Assembly (NCBI GenBank): GCA_027013165.1
Contig: JALUXV010000418.1
Location: forward strand, 1 to 45,021
Origin: Alteromonadaceae bacterium
GTDB taxonomy: Bacteria; Pseudomonadota; Gammaproteobacteria; Enterobacterales; Alteromonadaceae
Direction of reading: 5' to 3'
DNA length: 45,021 nt
Numbering within the stretch: the stretch's first letter is position 1; each line of letters begins with the position of its first letter. Of this stretch, positions 37,546 to 44,878 are shown piece after piece. The notes below the pieces were generated by a model. The model was not told the DNA's origin and made no database searches. It saw only the letters and a list, made by a program, of their open reading frames with translations. The position numbers and the translations under genes were made by a program.

Positions 37546-38958
37546 ATGTTTGAAAATTTATCCGAACGCTTAGGCCAAACGCTCAGAAATGTGAGCGGGA
37601 AAGGGCGACTTACTGACGACAATATTAAAGATACGCTACGGGAAGTGCGTATGGCCCTCCTTGAGGCCGACGTTGCATTGCCAGTAGTGAAAGCCTTTGT
37701 TGCGCAAGTCAAAGAGCGTGCAGTAGGAACCGAGGTCACCAAAAGCCTGAAGCCGGGCCAAGTGTTCATCAAAATCGTTCAATCAGAACTAGAAGCCGTG
37801 ATGGGCGCCGCGAACGAGCGTTTAGACCTAGCGGCTGCGCCTCCTGCCGTTGTGCTTATGGCGGGTTTACAAGGTGCTGGTAAAACGACCTCTGTGGGTA
37901 AATTAGCAAAGTACCTTACCGAGCGTGAAAAGAAGAAAGTCCTAGTAGTGAGTGCCGATATTTATCGTCCAGCGGCGATTAAGCAGCTAGAAACTCTTGC
38001 TACCGATGTGGGAGTAGGCTTCCACCCATCTACCATTTTGCAAAAGCCCATTGATATTGTAGAAAGCGCTATCGATGCAGCTAAAAAGCAGTTCTACGAT
38101 GTACTTCTTGTAGATACCGCCGGACGTCTTCATGTCGATAGTGACATGATGGATGAAATCAAAGACCTTCACGCAGCGGTTAAGCCTGTTGAAACCCTTT
38201 TCGTGGTTGATGCTATGACAGGTCAAGATGCCGCAAACACGGCAAAGGCTTTCAATGACGCCCTTCCACTTACCGGTGTTATTCTGACTAAAGCTGACGG
38301 TGATGCCCGAGGCGGTGCGGCGCTTTCTGTTCGCCACATTACTGGTAAACCTATTAAATTTATTGGTATGGGTGAGAAGCTCGATGCACTTGAGCCATTC
38401 CATCCAGAGCGTATTGCTTCTCGTATTCTTGGTATGGGCGACGTACTGAGCTTAATTGAAGAAGTTGAGCGTAAGGTTGATAAAAAGAAAGCCGAGAAGT
38501 TAGCCAAGAAAGTTCAAAAAGGTAAAGGTTTTGACCTGCAAGACTTTAAAGACCAGCTTGAACAAATGAAAAACATGGGCGGCATGATGGGGATGATGGA
38601 CAAGCTACCGGGTATGGGTGGCATGTCAGAGAAAATCAAAGAGCAAGCCAACGACAAGCAGTTCAACCAAATGGAAGCTATCATCAATTCGATGACGCCA
38701 GCAGAACGCGCAAGACCTGACATCATTAAAGGGTCTCGTAAGCGTCGTATTGCCGCAGGCTCGGGTACGCAAATTCAAGACGTTAATCGTTTGCTCAAGC
38801 AGTTCACGCAAATGCAGAAAATGATGAAGAAGATGTCTGGCGGCGGCATGAAGAAAATGATGCGTCAAATGAAAGGCATGATGCCTCCGGGCGGGCCAGG
38901 TGGTTTTGGTGGTCCAGGCGGCTTTGGTGGTGGCGGTGGTATGTTCCCACCACGCTAG
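37546..38958 (+). CDS. ffh: Signal recognition particle protein Ffh
   Basis: A 470 aa SRP54 GTPase that binds 4.5S RNA and signal sequences to target membrane proteins co-translationally. The N domain (1-85) has ALLEADVALPVV. The G domain has G1 GLQGAGKTT (107-115), DTAGRLHVD, TKADGDARGGAALS and the closing GMGEKLDALEPFHPERIASR. The methionine-rich M domain (about 325-435) contains the RNA-binding segment IIKGSRKRRIAAGSGT. It is longer than E. coli Ffh (453 aa) because of a glycine-rich tail after MKGMMPPG, with repeated GGFGG units. It is divergent from the ypjD-like gene. The rpsP operon that usually follows ffh in gammaproteobacteria is not next to it here. Confidence 0.98.
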   Translation: MFENLSERLGQTLRNVSGKGRLTDDNIKDTLREVRMALLEADVALPVVKAFVAQVKERAVGTEVTKSLKPGQVFIKIVQSELEAVMGAANERLDLAAAPPAVVLMAGLQGAGKTTSVGKLAKYLTEREKKKVLVVSADIYRPAAIKQLETLATDVGVGFHPSTILQKPIDIVESAIDAAKKQFYDVLLVDTAGRLHVDSDMMDEIKDLHAAVKPVETLFVVDAMTGQDAANTAKAFNDALPLTGVILTKADGDARGGAALSVRHITGKPIKFIGMGEKLDALEPFHPERIASRILGMGDVLSLIEEVERKVDKKKAEKLAKKVQKGKGFDLQDFKDQLEQMKNMGGMMGMMDKLPGMGGMSEKIKEQANDKQFNQMEAIINSMTPAERARPDIIKGSRKRRIAAGSGTQIQDVNRLLKQFTQMQKMMKKMSGGGMKKMMRQMKGMMPPGGPGGFGGPGGFGGGGGMFPPR

Positions 38959-39162: not shown

Positions 39163-42100
39163 ATGGCTGGTTTAAATCGCATCATCCTTATTGACACTCA
39201 TTTACCGGGTGTTGTGGAGTTGAAGCTTGATGGTCACACCAATATTTGTGGTACCAACGCCTCGGGTAAAACTACGTTACAACGCTTAATACCGGTGTTT
39301 TACGGTGAATATCCAAGCCGCGTAGTCCCCGCAACCCGAGATAGTTTTGAACGCTGGTACTTGCCCCGTACTTCTAGCTTTATTATTTACGAATACACCC
39401 GAGCAGAAGGGGATTTATGCCAGGTAGTGCTCAGCTCAAATGGCACGGGCGTAAACTACCGTTTAGTGGGTAAGCCTTTCGATTTAGACGATTACCTGAT
39501 TAAGCAAAAAAGCGGTAAGCACGTTAGCGTATCAAGTGCGGAACTAGCTCGCGCCATGAAGCGCAATGATATTCTCGTCAGTAATATTCTGAATACCAAA
39601 GATTTTCGCGCTATTATTCAAAATGATTTAGGTGTGTTAAACCAGAGTAGTTCAGCGCGAGAGCTACTGGGATATGCCAAAGTATTTAGTGTGTGTGAGT
39701 CAGGTAAGCACATGCGTCATATCGAGAAACTAGCAAAAGCGGTGCACTCAAAAGAAGGCAAGATGGAAACCATCAAAGCCATGATTGCGGCTATTCTAGA
39801 AGAAGATGGTGTAACGCCGCCTACGTCAAATTTGAGTCGTCACAGAGTTGATGATTGGATCAAAGAATGCCAGTTAATTAAACAGTTCGACAAAATACGC
39901 CCTGAGTTTTCCAAGCTAGAGCAAGCCGATATGGCGTTGACCTCACTGGAAGCCGAACTGAGCCAACTAAAGCATGATTTTGAACTAGATAAATCCTACT
40001 TGTCAGCCCATTTAGAGTCGACTAAGCAGGCGTTGGACAACAATCAGTTCGAGCGTAAACAAGCTGACAGCCAATGGCATGATAGTCGCGATCATTTGAA
40101 TCAGGTTATTTCTTCTGCCCGCGCCGATGTTGACAAATTCACTACTGAACTCGACACCGTAGAGCAAGAGTTTGAGCAATGGCAATCTGAAGATATTGAG
40201 CAGTTAAAAGAAGATGTAGAAAACCTTGCTCAATGGCAACGAGATGCTGAAATTGCCGAAAGTCGCTATCACCTTTTGACTGAAAAGCACCAAGATATTG
40301 AATCGGCCTTTAACCGCCGTGCCGCGGAACTCAGCGATAGCTTAGGACAAACTCTTGAGTTGTTGTCGGAAAGAAAAGCAGAAGCTGCTGAGCAGAAAGC
40401 CCAACAGCAGCGTGAAGAAAGCGAGAGTATTACCCAAATTCAACGTGATTTCGCCGCTCAGTTGAATGACGTGAAAGCTGCTCATCAAGATGCGCTGAGT
40501 GAACTTAAAGTGAAAGAAGCTGAGCTTCAGTCTGCGTTGAATAACGCAGGATACAATGAGTTTGAACAATCGCAACTAGACTTATTAGACGCTGCTATTA
40601 AAGATGCATCGATTAATGAAGATGCTGCCCGTAGCGAACTACGGAAAGCCAATCAAGCTCATAGCAAACTGGTACAACAGCGTTTAGAGGCGTCTAATGC
40701 TCTCGATAAAGCAAGAGCGCGCTATCAAAAAGAAGACGTTGAAGTTGATAAAATCAACGGCCTTCTATATCCCGGTGAAGGTTCGCTATTAGAATTCTTG
40801 CGTAAAAACGTGGATGACTGGGAGCATACGCTGGGTAAGGTACTGCATCCTGATTTACTCGACCGTACCGACTTAAAGCCGAGCAGACAAGACGCGGGAA
40901 CCTCGTTGATGGGGGTAGAACTTGCCCTTTCTATGATAGATACCCCAAGCTATGCGCAAACTGAAACTGAGTTAAAGCAAAAACTCAGCGATGCTCAGCA
41001 GCGTCAGGCTGAAGCCCTTGAGGTACAAAATACCTGTGAAACGGCTCTGGCGAAAGCCAACGAGGAAGTGCGTAACGCTGAACTTATAGTTACGCAAAAA
41101 GATAACGGCGTAAAAAGTGCTGAAGCGACCCGAAAGCGTACCCAGCAAGACAGAGACACAGTACTTAGCGAGTATCAGCAAGCTTTGTCTGCCCGTAAAA
41201 AGTCGACCAGAACAAAGTTAGACGGAATTAAGCAGAGCCAAAAACAAGCGGCTACTCAGTTTGCTGCAAGTGTTGATGAGATCAAAGATCAGCAGCGAGA
41301 AGCTGAAACTGAGCACCGTTTCCACTGGCAACAGTTGTTAAGCGATACCGACAGCAGAATCGACAAAATTGACCAAGACATTAAGCACGCCAAAGACAGT
41401 GCAGCGTCAGATCGTCAAGAAATGAATCAATGGTTAGAGAACGAGTTAAATCAACGGGGCGTTGACGTTGATGAAATTGGTCAGTTAAAGCGTCAGATCA
41501 ACGAATTAAAAGCGTCTATCAATCGCACCGAAAAACACCGACACAAAGTGAGCGACTACGAGCGTTGGTACAATACAGTGTTTATGTCACAAAAAGTGAC
41601 ATGGCAAGAAGGCTTAACCAAAGCTCGCAAATCATTGGGTGATGCTGAGCGCAGCCTTGCTGAAAAGCAATCGAGTTACAAAACACTACGAGAAACACTG
41701 CAAGAGCAACACGCAGAACTAGAGTCATCGCTTAAGCAAACTAAAGAGCATTTAGAGCAGGTGACGTCGCTGAGTAAGTCGTTAAGCAAGATTCGACTAA
41801 AAGCGCCTGATGAAACCAAAGCCCAATTGAGCCAAGACGCAGTGAGCATTGGCCAACGTATTTCACAGGTACAAAGCCAACTGCAAGAACGAGAGCAGTT
41901 GCTTAGTGATGTACGTGCTTACGTTGAACGTTTCGATCAGTTAATTGCAGCACAGGCTGGTACGGGCTTGTCAGATACGTGGGAGCGAGCACGAGAGGAG
42001 TGCGCGACCACCAACGCCAATGGTATCAAGTCTATTGACCATCGCAGAATGGTGACTCACCTTTCTCAGCTACTAAACGTTATTGTTCCGCAGAAACTTC

Positions 42101-42846
42101 AAGGACTTCGTGAGCAAGGGCGCATTTTTGGTGCAGACTTGTCTCAGTACTATTTTGTATTGGCTGATATCGACAAACGCATTGCGTCACAAAGTCGACG
42201 TATCACCAAAGAGGTTGATGGTGAACTGTTCCTCGATGGTGTGTCCGACTCAGCCGTTAAGATACGCTCCCGCATTAGTGAACTTGAATTCTGGCCAGAG
42301 CTAGAGCAATTCAGAAAACACTACGAGTTGTGGATAGAGAACGGCGCAAACGAATTGCCACAAGAAGAGTACGGTATGAGTATGCGCACTGTACTTGATA
42401 TTCTTGGCCGTGCTGCGCTTACGGGCGGAATTAGTAAGCTGCTGGATATTGAGCTGCACTTAAAAGAGGGCAACAGCGATCTAACTATTAGAACGGATCG
42501 CCAGCTCAATGAGTCGTCGAGTCACGGTATGGCTTACCTGATTTTGTGTAAGTTTTTGCTTGCCTTTACCCGCTTATTACGTGGTGATGAAAAGGCCACC
42601 ATACACTGGCCTATTGACGAGCTGGGTACGCTTCACCAAAGTAACGTTAAGAAGATATTTGACGCGTGTCAGAACAATAACATTAGCGTGGTGGGCGCAT
42701 TCCCTAACCCAGAGTCAGATGTACTGACATTGTTTGAGAACCGTTACCTCATTGACAAAGTGTCTCGTCAATTACAAGTGGTTCAACCAAAATCTAGCGC
42801 CATTGCCGAGCGATTAAAAGCGCGTCAGCTCGCTGAGGAGAAATAA
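39163..42846 (+). CDS. SMC-like coiled-coil ATPase of a condensin-type complex (MukB/MksB/JetC-like, DUF3584-like)
   Basis: A 1227 aa protein from the ATG at 39163, chosen over a GTG at 39139 because AGGAAGA lies just before it. The N-terminal head half has P-loop GTNASGKTT (30-38) followed by LQRLIPVFYGEYPSRVVPAT. Two long coiled-coil arms, rich in Q, E, K and A (roughly 260-525 and 615-985), flank a compact hinge-like segment (about 533-610, LLYPGEGSLLEFLRKNVDDW). The C-terminal head half has an atypical ABC signature, SSSHGMAYLILCKF (1118-1131), and Walker B IHWPIDELG with D1152-E1153. Length and layout fit the DUF3584 family as I remember it. It likely dimerises and, with the two following gene products, entraps or extrudes DNA. 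It is not MukB proper, which is larger and has a different signature context. Confidence 0.87.
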   Translation: MAGLNRIILIDTHLPGVVELKLDGHTNICGTNASGKTTLQRLIPVFYGEYPSRVVPATRDSFERWYLPRTSSFIIYEYTRAEGDLCQVVLSSNGTGVNYRLVGKPFDLDDYLIKQKSGKHVSVSSAELARAMKRNDILVSNILNTKDFRAIIQNDLGVLNQSSSARELLGYAKVFSVCESGKHMRHIEKLAKAVHSKEGKMETIKAMIAAILEEDGVTPPTSNLSRHRVDDWIKECQLIKQFDKIRPEFSKLEQADMALTSLEAELSQLKHDFELDKSYLSAHLESTKQALDNNQFERKQADSQWHDSRDHLNQVISSARADVDKFTTELDTVEQEFEQWQSEDIEQLKEDVENLAQWQRDAEIAESRYHLLTEKHQDIESAFNRRAAELSDSLGQTLELLSERKAEAAEQKAQQQREESESITQIQRDFAAQLNDVKAAHQDALSELKVKEAELQSALNNAGYNEFEQSQLDLLDAAIKDASINEDAARSELRKANQAHSKLVQQRLEASNALDKARARYQKEDVEVDKINGLLYPGEGSLLEFLRKNVDDWEHTLGKVLHPDLLDRTDLKPSRQDAGTSLMGVELALSMIDTPSYAQTETELKQKLSDAQQRQAEALEVQNTCETALAKANEEVRNAELIVTQKDNGVKSAEATRKRTQQDRDTVLSEYQQALSARKKSTRTKLDGIKQSQKQAATQFAASVDEIKDQQREAETEHRFHWQQLLSDTDSRIDKIDQDIKHAKDSAASDRQEMNQWLENELNQRGVDVDEIGQLKRQINELKASINRTEKHRHKVSDYERWYNTVFMSQKVTWQEGLTKARKSLGDAERSLAEKQSSYKTLRETLQEQHAELESSLKQTKEHLEQVTSLSKSLSKIRLKAPDETKAQLSQDAVSIGQRISQVQSQLQEREQLLSDVRAYVERFDQLIAAQAGTGLSDTWERAREECATTNANGIKSIDHRRMVTHLSQLLNVIVPQKLQGLREQGRIFGADLSQYYFVLADIDKRIASQSRRITKEVDGELFLDGVSDSAVKIRSRISELEFWPELEQFRKHYELWIENGANELPQEEYGMSMRTVLDILGRAALTGGISKLLDIELHLKEGNSDLTIRTDRQLNESSSHGMAYLILCKFLLAFTRLLRGDEKATIHWPIDELGTLHQSNVKKIFDACQNNNISVVGAFPNPESDVLTLFENRYLIDKVSRQLQVVQPKSSAIAERLKARQLAEEK

Positions 42847-42847
42847 T

Positions 42848-43483
42848 ATGATGACGGAACAAGGTCAAGTACTTAGCGCGTTGTTGGAAGGCAAGTTTAT
42901 TTGTCAGGTATCGGATGAAATGTCGTGGCGTTTTTTAAAAGCTAACGGCAATGCAGCCCAGCTAGAGCCTCATTTGAACCTACTTAATCGCACGCTTTCG
43001 ACTACGGCGGAGGGTGATGTATTTTTTGCCAGCTACCTCACTATTGGTGAAGCAGAGCGCAAAATTCTGATCCAACAGTTTCAGGAAACCACCTCTTATT
43101 TGGTGCCGCTGGTGGAGTGGTTGCTATTGGTTCAACAAGCCAATGAGTCTGATATGCCAGTGACTATGGGCAATGCTATTCGCTTGAATGAGCTACTCAC
43201 CACCATCGAAGATACACCTGCGTATACCGAGCAACTTGAAAAAATATCGCGCTACAAGATATTTGGCTCTGCCAGTGTATCGGCCGACGGCCAGTTAAAG
43301 CAGGTGTTTAAGCGGTTGTGTGATTTGGGCTACTTAATCAAGCCTAACCCAGACAAGCAGATTTATTTGGCCACCGGTCGCGTAGAACACTTGTACGAGA
43401 TGATCCGCTTTATTGACGAAACCGAGGCTCTGAGTCTAGCCGAACAGGCCGACGCCGCTATTCAGCAAGGTAGCTTGATATGA
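42848..43483 (+). CDS. KITE-like winged-helix subunit (MksE/JetB-like)
   Basis: A 211 aa soluble protein starting one base after the ATPase stop, with GAGGAG seven bases before the ATG at 42848 (a second ATG follows directly). The N-terminal part (QVSDEMSWRFLKANGNAAQL, then a helical stretch) precedes a region that reads as a winged helix: YKIFGSASVSADGQLKQVFK, RLCDLGYLI and a short acidic tail ending in helices. Size, position and this fold agree with the KITE subunits MukE, MksE and JetB, which bind the kleisin and DNA. Sequence identity to those is not obvious to me by eye, so the call depends on operon context. It overlaps the next gene by four bases. Confidence 0.75.
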   Translation: MMTEQGQVLSALLEGKFICQVSDEMSWRFLKANGNAAQLEPHLNLLNRTLSTTAEGDVFFASYLTIGEAERKILIQQFQETTSYLVPLVEWLLLVQQANESDMPVTMGNAIRLNELLTTIEDTPAYTEQLEKISRYKIFGSASVSADGQLKQVFKRLCDLGYLIKPNPDKQIYLATGRVEHLYEMIRFIDETEALSLAEQADAAIQQGSLI

Positions 43484-44700
43484 GTCAGGTATTGTTGCAG
43501 GCGGGGAGTCGATTACTCAACGCGTTAGGGCGACACAGCGACCTGATCATGCAGGCGTATATTAACGGGTCGGTGTCTGCGCGGGAATACAGCCCCAAAG
43601 TATTAGAGCAGCTAGTGCAGCTTGGCGTGTTGTGGCGTCCTGAGGCGCAAAGTGACCTACGCCTAAAAAGCGCTGTGCGAACTTTACTCGAAGGCAGTTT
43701 ACAGGATGAGCGAAACCGCAATATCAACACTAATATTGGTGCTGCTATCGCAAGCCTTAAAACCCTAACAGAGCACTACAAAGAGGCACTTCAGCACCAG
43801 CGTTATAACGATGCCACAGCGTACATGAGTGATCTCACCGAACATACATACCAGTTGTCTGAAACCCTTTCAAATAGTGTAAGGGTAATGTTCAGCCGCA
43901 TTAATAATGAATTTGGCTATGTGTCGTCGGTTGAAGCGAAAATTCGAGAAAATGAATTGGCTCAGGAACAGGTGACTGACCTACTTGGTCAGCTAGAGTG
44001 TTTCCGTTTTGATGAATTAAGTGAATTAGCGGGATCAAATCGCGAACTTCGTCACTTACTTGTTGTCTCACTTCAGCAGCGTTTCTCATTGGCAGCACAA
44101 GAGCTGTCGGTGGTGCAAGCACGATTACTTGATTTACTTGGGCGATTTAGAGAGTTCCGAGGGCGTACCCGCCTACTCAAAGGGTTTTTGCTTCATATGG
44201 AGCAACACCCAGATTTTACTCCTGGTAATTATCCCAACTTAACCCAAGTGCCCGTGCTGTTTAATCAGTCGCGCAGCGTTATTAAACCTGCGGCTTCAAA
44301 CGTGAACAACGTGGAGCATGAGGCTGATTATCACGCAATTGTTGGGGCGTTAAACTATGTGCATAAGCAACATAAAGCGCCAGAAGAGCAAGTTGAATCG
44401 CAAGAAATCAATGTTACTGAACAAGCGAGTGTGACGTTAGAAAAAGATCCGCTTCATCAAGCAGTAGAAGCTTACTTTGTAGATGTGATTGACTCTGGCC
44501 AAGCAAAAACAGCGTTGGAGTATTATCACGAACACGAGCTAAGCTTTGACCCTGAAGTGTGGATTTATCAAGTAATTGGCGGCTACCAAGGGCTTGATGA
44601 TGAGGATAAACAGTACTTTGCGTTAGATGCGCAAGGCAAGAACGATACACGCTTTACCGGGAATTTTTACATTAATGATGTAACCTTAGGGCTAAGGTAG
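43480..44700 (+). CDS. Kleisin-like subunit (MksF/JetA-like)
   Basis: A 406 aa protein whose ATG overlaps the preceding stop as ATGA (43480-43483). An N-terminal winged-helix-like region (about 1-75: LLNALGRHSDLIMQAYINGS, KVLEQLVQLGVLWRPEAQ) is followed by a long helical middle (about 80-270, with QERNR-like LQDERNRNINTNIGAAIASL and LSNSVRVMFSRINNEFGYVS). A charged linker with Pro/Glu/Gln follows (about 290-335), then a C-terminal domain (about 338-406). This N-winged-helix, helical neck, linker and C-terminal domain plan is that of kleisins such as MukF/MksF/JetA. It would bridge the two ATPase heads and hold the winged-helix subunit. It is the last gene of the cassette. Confidence 0.77.
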   Translation: MSQVLLQAGSRLLNALGRHSDLIMQAYINGSVSAREYSPKVLEQLVQLGVLWRPEAQSDLRLKSAVRTLLEGSLQDERNRNINTNIGAAIASLKTLTEHYKEALQHQRYNDATAYMSDLTEHTYQLSETLSNSVRVMFSRINNEFGYVSSVEAKIRENELAQEQVTDLLGQLECFRFDELSELAGSNRELRHLLVVSLQQRFSLAAQELSVVQARLLDLLGRFREFRGRTRLLKGFLLHMEQHPDFTPGNYPNLTQVPVLFNQSRSVIKPAASNVNNVEHEADYHAIVGALNYVHKQHKAPEEQVESQEINVTEQASVTLEKDPLHQAVEAYFVDVIDSGQAKTALEYYHEHELSFDPEVWIYQVIGGYQGLDDEDKQYFALDAQGKNDTRFTGNFYINDVTLGLR

Positions 44701-44878
44701 CAGGCTTGAAGTTAGTGTTTGAAAGTATAGATTTCAGTACATAGGTATGATTTTAAAGTTGCGATCTTCTTAGGTAATTCTTTACAAAGTGTTAACATTG
44801 CGCGGATGTAATCTTGAAATTAGCATTACTGGCCACATGTTTTTTCTGTCACTTTTGAATGATATTAAGGGGCGAATA

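Follow-up and report, generated by a model that had tools for sequence, protein, structure and literature searches.

The window analysed here, a complete contig of 45,021 nt (JALUXV010000418.1) from the 586-contig genome of a bacterium of the Alteromonadaceae, carries close to its end three genes for a condensin-like complex, namely an ATPase of the structural maintenance of chromosomes (SMC) family, a KITE (tandem winged-helix) protein and a kleisin-like protein, hereafter B, E and F. We consider it reasonably probable that this cassette belongs to a distinct branch of the Wadjet/Mks systems with reversed gene order (B-E-F-D) and lacks the nuclease, i.e. that it is a Wadjet-like anti-plasmid motor that lost its nuclease D and was kept as a probable second chromosome condensin. 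The window copy is assigned to the Wadjet/Mks branch because some members of its family have a fourth gene for a JetD-type nuclease.

The three genes lie on the forward strand between positions 39163 and 44700, with 1 nt between B and E and an ATGA overlap of E and F, and the set of SMC, KITE-like and kleisin-like genes that a sequence-only reading had recognized in this arrangement was confirmed. The Pfam family PF12128 (DUF3584) covered B over its full length with 1085 bits, and window B was 99% identical to B of Alteromonas sp. KUL49. In the motifs of B that we take to be Walker A, an ABC-signature-like stretch and Walker B, the residues G30, T31, N32, G35, K36 and T37 of the first and S1119, S1120, G1122, D1152 and E1153 of the other two were invariant in 11/11 relatives. 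E barely passed the Pfam cut-off for MksE (PF21980; 28.4 bits, cut-off 27), and its structure predicted with AlphaFold2 (AF2) found its best Foldseek/VIA matches in JetABC and MukE entries. F gave no Pfam match above cut-off. From the N-terminus onwards, its model shows predicted helices together with one strand, then a long helical bundle, a low-confidence linker and, on the C-terminal side, helices and two strands. All ten best Foldseek matches of this model were kleisin-type chains, none of them below 1e-3, and the VIA Z values were tied with those of helical bundles. The models of E and F matched chains of MukE and MukF entries; KITE and kleisin structures were their best matches, as the sequence-only reading had expected. 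Comparison of the F profile with JetA (probability 0.4) and of the E profile with JetB (probability 2.3), the latter two built from six of the eight JetC1 reference loci, yielded no usable match, and therefore the links of E to JetB and of F to JetA rest on the predicted folds. When solved structures were searched by sequence with B alone and with profiles of B, E and F, the outcome was coiled-coil, unrelated or no matches. Window B, E and F had no NCBIfam match above cut-off, and among the PADLOC models window B reached at most 21.8 bits (a weak JetC1 match) and E and F matched nothing.

A fourth gene, D, directly follows F in 21 of the 76 distinct loci collected from relatives and the window. 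The encoded protein has 274-308 aa in 20/21 loci and 380 aa in L078, and when 8 D proteins were compared with Pfam DUF7281 (a family without assigned function; cut-off 27 bits), 7 passed and the remaining one, L080, scored 13.9 bits. When the profiles of D and JetD were compared, 129 columns were aligned with a probability of 95.7 and an E-value of 8.9e-9, the aligned part of D being its C-terminal half; the JetD side consisted of five references of 375-439 aa, one of which (L169) was taken by position only. Residues E143, N144, D196, D198 and Q269 of D were invariant (23/23), and the D-x-D and QE motifs were invariant in the JetD references, too. According to the available part of a study on MksG (PMC10123090), cutting by this nuclease needs E236 and D279, and the invariant E143, D196 and D198 of D appear to resemble these residues in kind. 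Because of the profile match to JetD and the invariance of residues of the catalytic type, D is predicted to be a JetD-type Toprim nuclease. A first profile of six D sequences had matched JetD weakly (L174, E 0.0099), and later E-values of D in loci of the classic order were inflated since such hits had entered the profile; we therefore relied on the separate comparison of the D and JetD profiles. The PADLOC models for JetD matched D at E 2e-7 or weaker only.

The order B-E-F on one strand was found in all 77 rows of our locus table (76 distinct loci), whereas 8/8 JetC1 reference loci had the order kleisin-KITE-SMC, and the reversed order persisted among relatives down to 20-21% ATPase identity. 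Thus, the reversal relative to mukFEB, mksFEB and jetABC, which the sequence-only reading had pointed out for the window, is real and old. In a tree of the ATPase heads (79 taxa, 561 columns; L181 with masked residues and L141 with a split gene were left out), the reversed-order ATPases were monophyletic (60/60) with a Shimodaira-Hasegawa-like (SH-like) support of 0.938 in FastTree. The classic-order locus L140 from a Persicobacter plasmid was the sister of this clade (0.967 together), the JetC1 (0.999) and MukB (1.0) clades were separate from it, and Smc was distant. In a 37-taxon bootstrap tree that additionally contained the phage copy described below, the reversed clade (21/21) received an ultrafast bootstrap (UFBoot) value of 99, and of 92 together with L140. 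Deeper nodes were weak, i.e. SH-like 0.284 and UFBoot 79 for all DUF7281-type ATPases and 0.874 and 72 for JetC1 plus MukB. The trees were built without JetC of Wadjet types II and III and without MksB of P. aeruginosa; a JetC3 query over 200 genomes retrieved coiled-coil matches only, hence no type II/III sequence entered the tree. B was located inside neither the sampled JetC1 nor the sampled MukB clade, and the earlier proposal of a separate lineage was upheld insofar as the reversed ATPases form one clade, but this clade is not remote in kind and belongs to the Wadjet/Mks branch.

Three classic-order loci with the same nuclease family, L140, L180 and L184, were found just outside the reversed clade, as its sister or as outgroups. 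Each of them consists of a kleisin-sized open reading frame, a KITE gene, the ATPase gene and the nuclease gene in this order; the ATPase of L140 is of the DUF3584 type, and L140 and L184 have an MksE-type KITE. From their position next to the clade, we take the usual order to be the older one among relatives with DUF7281, and the reversed order to be a probable later rearrangement of it.

The four-gene form B-E-F-D was found on plasmids of Aromatoleum, Acinetobacter, Marinobacter, Vibrio and Azospira, in scattered gammaproteobacterial genomes and in the 209-kb cyanophage Dfl-JY45, in which the full set (L256:4875-11251) is labelled hypothetical throughout. On the plasmids, B is annotated as 'ATP-binding protein' and the rest as 'hypothetical', with one D given as 'DUF2399'. 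The phage-borne copy possibly reflects warfare between mobile elements. With window B as query, PLSDB returned 43 records with some match, 10 of them covering at least 80% of B, and D of L057 matched 4 records at the limit used. Among viral contigs, 218 stretches fitted the search pattern and none was a relative, a weak negative as two short patterns were used. A class-level search for the ATPase gave 12/369 genomes, an undercount since at most 2 candidates were scored per genome; of the 12, G301 and G337 look like coiled-coil or Walker noise, judging from the stretches matched, and G257 is a fragment. In the family sample, B was present in 56/118 genomes (one of them, G425, at noise level) and DUF7281 in 13/118, in 10 of these beside B by position.

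Some copies and arrangements deviated from this form. L180 and L184, as well as L182, represent a compact variant with ATPases of 917-936 aa and a DUF7281-type nuclease. The nuclease comes first at L254:6338-12001 and L253:5255-10001, where a DUF7281-like gene is followed by an open reading frame of 978-982 aa and by a third one of 464 aa (L254) or, cut, of 328 aa (L253). Decaying copies of B were seen on enterobacterial plasmids, truncated beside an insertion sequence in Raoultella (L142:7929-8660) and, in Enterobacter hormaechei (hit H10), listed in two parts along with an IS256-like element. On a Vibrio campbellii plasmid (L141), B and F both consist of two separate pieces, while E and D look intact. 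Genome G288 contains, far from its intact cassette, a second, broken DUF7281 copy (L186, a 141-aa piece).

All 24 Alteromonas genomes contained B. D was present after F in intact form in 1/24 (G011, L051), as a remnant in 1/24 (G014, L050) and absent in 22/24, these being the window's own genome, 5 and 16 further ones. The loci L050 and L051, in which B is 93% identical, have ~80% DNA identity until 74 nt into D, where L050 skips to the end of D. Two pieces of D are left in L050, one matching 34 aa at the 5' end with 59% identity (E 6e-9) and the other 27 aa at the 3' end with 41% identity (E 0.003). Because both ends of D remain where L051 has an intact D, the nuclease gene was deleted in L050 beside an intact motor. 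B-E-F are intact and D is missing in nearly all Alteromonas genomes and in most related genera sampled. In Alteromonas, no nuclease-like gene was seen in place of D; in the D-less loci, F is followed after 88-596 nt by a TerB-like gene.

The ratios of nonsynonymous to synonymous substitution rates (dN/dS) in six pairs were 0.021-0.029 for B, 0.000-0.033 for E and 0.014-0.038 for F, and the medians of neighbouring genes (3-8 genes) were 0.015-0.040, similar to B. The cassette follows ffh in 16/17 named Alteromonas loci and 7/8 further loci of the genus (23/25 in total), with the stretch of L051 stopping short of where ffh would be reached, and the same TerB-like gene stands downstream in 25/25 Alteromonas loci, including the window, L042, L050 and L051. 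Elsewhere, the window genome encodes Smc (1029.8 bits) and ScpB, and no match to MukB (PF04310) was found in it. A chromosomal role appears most likely because every genome sampled from the genus has B, with the trio located beside ffh, slowly evolving and accompanied by Smc and ScpB in the absence of MukB, as one would expect for an accessory condensin. In the proposed mechanism, two B ATPases would be linked through F, the predicted kleisin, and held by the KITE protein E in an SMC ring that spends ATP on capturing DNA and extruding loops. In the four-gene relatives, D would cut small circular DNA after its full extrusion and in this way exclude plasmids or phages. In nearly all Alteromonas genomes, where D is gone and B-E-F appear to be kept between ffh and the TerB-like gene under strong purifying selection, the nuclease-less motor would serve the chromosome as an additional condensin beside Smc, as proposed for MksBEF.

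Two genomes stood out with respect to their condensins. G033 (L058/L083), listed as 100% complete, has B-E-F-D, yet nothing in it passed the cut-off for Smc and neither ScpB nor MukB was matched; either the Wadjet-like system is its sole condensin or a further one escaped the search. G025 gave no match to Smc, ScpB, MukB or B.

Among the known systems, Wadjet (JetABCD/MksBEFG/EptABCD) is an operon of SMC, KITE, kleisin and Toprim nuclease genes, as are the D-containing relatives. The window ATPase has the Walker motifs and a DUF3584/MukB-like head, a KITE gene is present, the alignment of D and JetD has D-x-D and Q-E conserved in both sets of proteins, and D-containing relatives occur on plasmids. 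However, the ATPase gene is first here and third in Wadjet, D is shorter than the JetD references in 20 of 21 loci, B lies outside the JetC1 clade, the window cassette is without D, and B, E and F are not recognized by curated models. The chromosomal, nuclease-free MukBEF resembles the cassette in its MukE and MukF chains, which the KITE and kleisin models match, but its order is mukF-E-B, and MukB has 1481-1508 aa and a Pfam family of its own. With Smc-ScpAB the general SMC-kleisin-KITE plan is common, whereas the Smc and ScpB of this genome are encoded elsewhere and Smc is distant in the tree.

The cassette could be an already described MksBEF with another gene order and no more, which we judge rather improbable. 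MksBEF of Pseudomonas aeruginosa likewise has three subunits and no nuclease and coexists with Smc, and E just passes the MksE cut-off. The order in PAO1 is reportedly mksFEB, and MksBEF is said to have been described by Petrushenko 2011 as overlapping subfamilies. The literature searches made gave no paper on the cassette or on DUF7281. As far as the available part of a 2025 Cell survey of Wadjet-group operons tells (PMC7617805), consecutive matches to MksB, MksF and MksE were required and several members were without MksG/JetD; the species considered here may be listed and members of the family may figure in its data. However, the order of MksBEF is F-E-B, opposite to B-E-F here, and the order mksFEBG is termed conserved in the part available of PMC10123090; furthermore, E and F had no usable profile match to JetB and JetA, the group lies outside JetC1, and the deletion of D would stay unexplained.

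Alternatively, the nuclease-less trio may still serve in defence, either by trapping and silencing plasmid or phage DNA without cutting it (cf. Smc5/6 on some viral DNA) or by lending its loop to a host nuclease. The four-gene relatives have a JetD-type nuclease and some of them reside on plasmids and in a phage, and losing one effector gene is no proof of a lost defence role. Defence genes are usually patchy in distribution. The trio, in contrast, is found in all 24 genomes of the genus and beside ffh in 23 of 25 loci, its dN/dS values are like those of the neighbours, and a nuclease-like replacement of D was not seen in Alteromonas, so that we regard a persisting defence function as unlikely, if the most serious of the alternatives. 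Very improbable, in our judgement, is that D was mostly gained, i.e. that Alteromonadaceae-type genera started out with the reversed trio and acquired or exchanged the nuclease on several occasions. D-less copies do outnumber D-containing ones (40 vs 7 among 47 copies of the family clade), and the D proteins of this clade form two groups that do not join. Against such gains, D stands directly after F in the loci that have it, the distances of D and B correlate over 22 loci (Mantel r 0.59, a value reached by 0/2000 permutations), several small groups are common to the D and B trees, D is present all around the family clade and in the classic-order outgroups L140, L180 and L184, and L050 retains both ends of D.

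A number of points weigh against a lost nuclease and a chromosomal condensin. The contig ends 321 nt past F, and the absence of D from the window genome relies on a genome search without DUF7281 match and on the near-identical L042, which runs from F straight to the TerB-like gene. A clear D remnant was found in 1/55 D-less loci (L050) and in 0/16 further loci of the genus, and as L050 alone has one, the loss of D elsewhere is what we infer. The D proteins of L051-53 (0.988) and of L075/L207/L210/L211 (0.995) group separately, whereas their B genes join (1.0), so that one of these groups may have exchanged its D. The kleisin fold predicted for F has moderate support. At 0-0.012, dN/dS of ffh is lower than that of B, and purifying selection is equally compatible with a role in defence. 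Outside the genus, B was present in 0/4 genomes with MukB vs 7/12 without, a weak trend towards avoidance of MukB, and vibrios have D-containing copies on plasmids. It is close to an even call, with doubt slightly in the lead, whether the wider picture holds, namely that a further, reversed-order Wadjet type (B-E-F-D, with a short DUF7281 Toprim nuclease), present on plasmids, in genomes and in a large phage and mostly unnamed, was disarmed many times independently in Alteromonadaceae-type genera and fixed there as a second chromosome condensin. The D-less clades amount to 17 losses on both ATPase trees, a rough figure that assumes no regain and depends on the branch order.

The features of the window are compiled in Table 1. 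The TerB score of the downstream gene in L042 was 21.2 bits, under the cut-off of 24.4.

Table 1. Positions of the cassette, its presumed motifs and its neighbours in the window.
Feature	Position	Strand	Basis
B, SMC-family ATPase (DUF3584), MksB/JetC-like	39163..42846	+	1227 aa; PF12128 over full length, tree clade
Presumed Walker A of B, residues 30-37 (GTNASGKT)	39250..39273	+	translation; conservation in relatives
Presumed ABC-signature-like stretch (S1119, S1120, G1122) and Walker B with DE at 1152-1153 of B	42517..42621	+	translation; conservation
E, KITE (tandem winged-helix) subunit, MksE/JetB/MukE-like	42848..43483	+	211 aa; PF21980, AF2 with Foldseek/VIA
F, kleisin-like subunit, MukF/JetA-like	43480..44700	+	406 aa
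Site of the nuclease gene (DUF7281) of relatives, no nuclease here	44701..44878	+	loci of relatives, genome search, L042
Start of TerB-like gene, cut by contig end	44879..45021	+	flanks the cassette in Alteromonas
ffh (SRP54), directly upstream; chromosomal anchor outside the complex	37546..38958	+	Pfam

In the available part of a review (PMC10586767), MukBEF and MksBEF are suspected descendants of plasmid-cutting machines of the Wadjet type, and an origin of MksBEF through loss of JetD is proposed. Whereas these suspected transitions from Wadjet to condensin are ancient, the switch considered here would be recent and perhaps a repeated one. Annotation and the defence models tried largely missed the armed form carried by plasmids and a phage, and defence inventories probably overlook it. 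With two sister species of Alteromonas that have, at one and the same site, an intact nuclease gene vs its two leftover ends, the switch from defence to housekeeping becomes directly testable, and with it the questions of what role a nuclease-less Wadjet motor would play and why it is retained.

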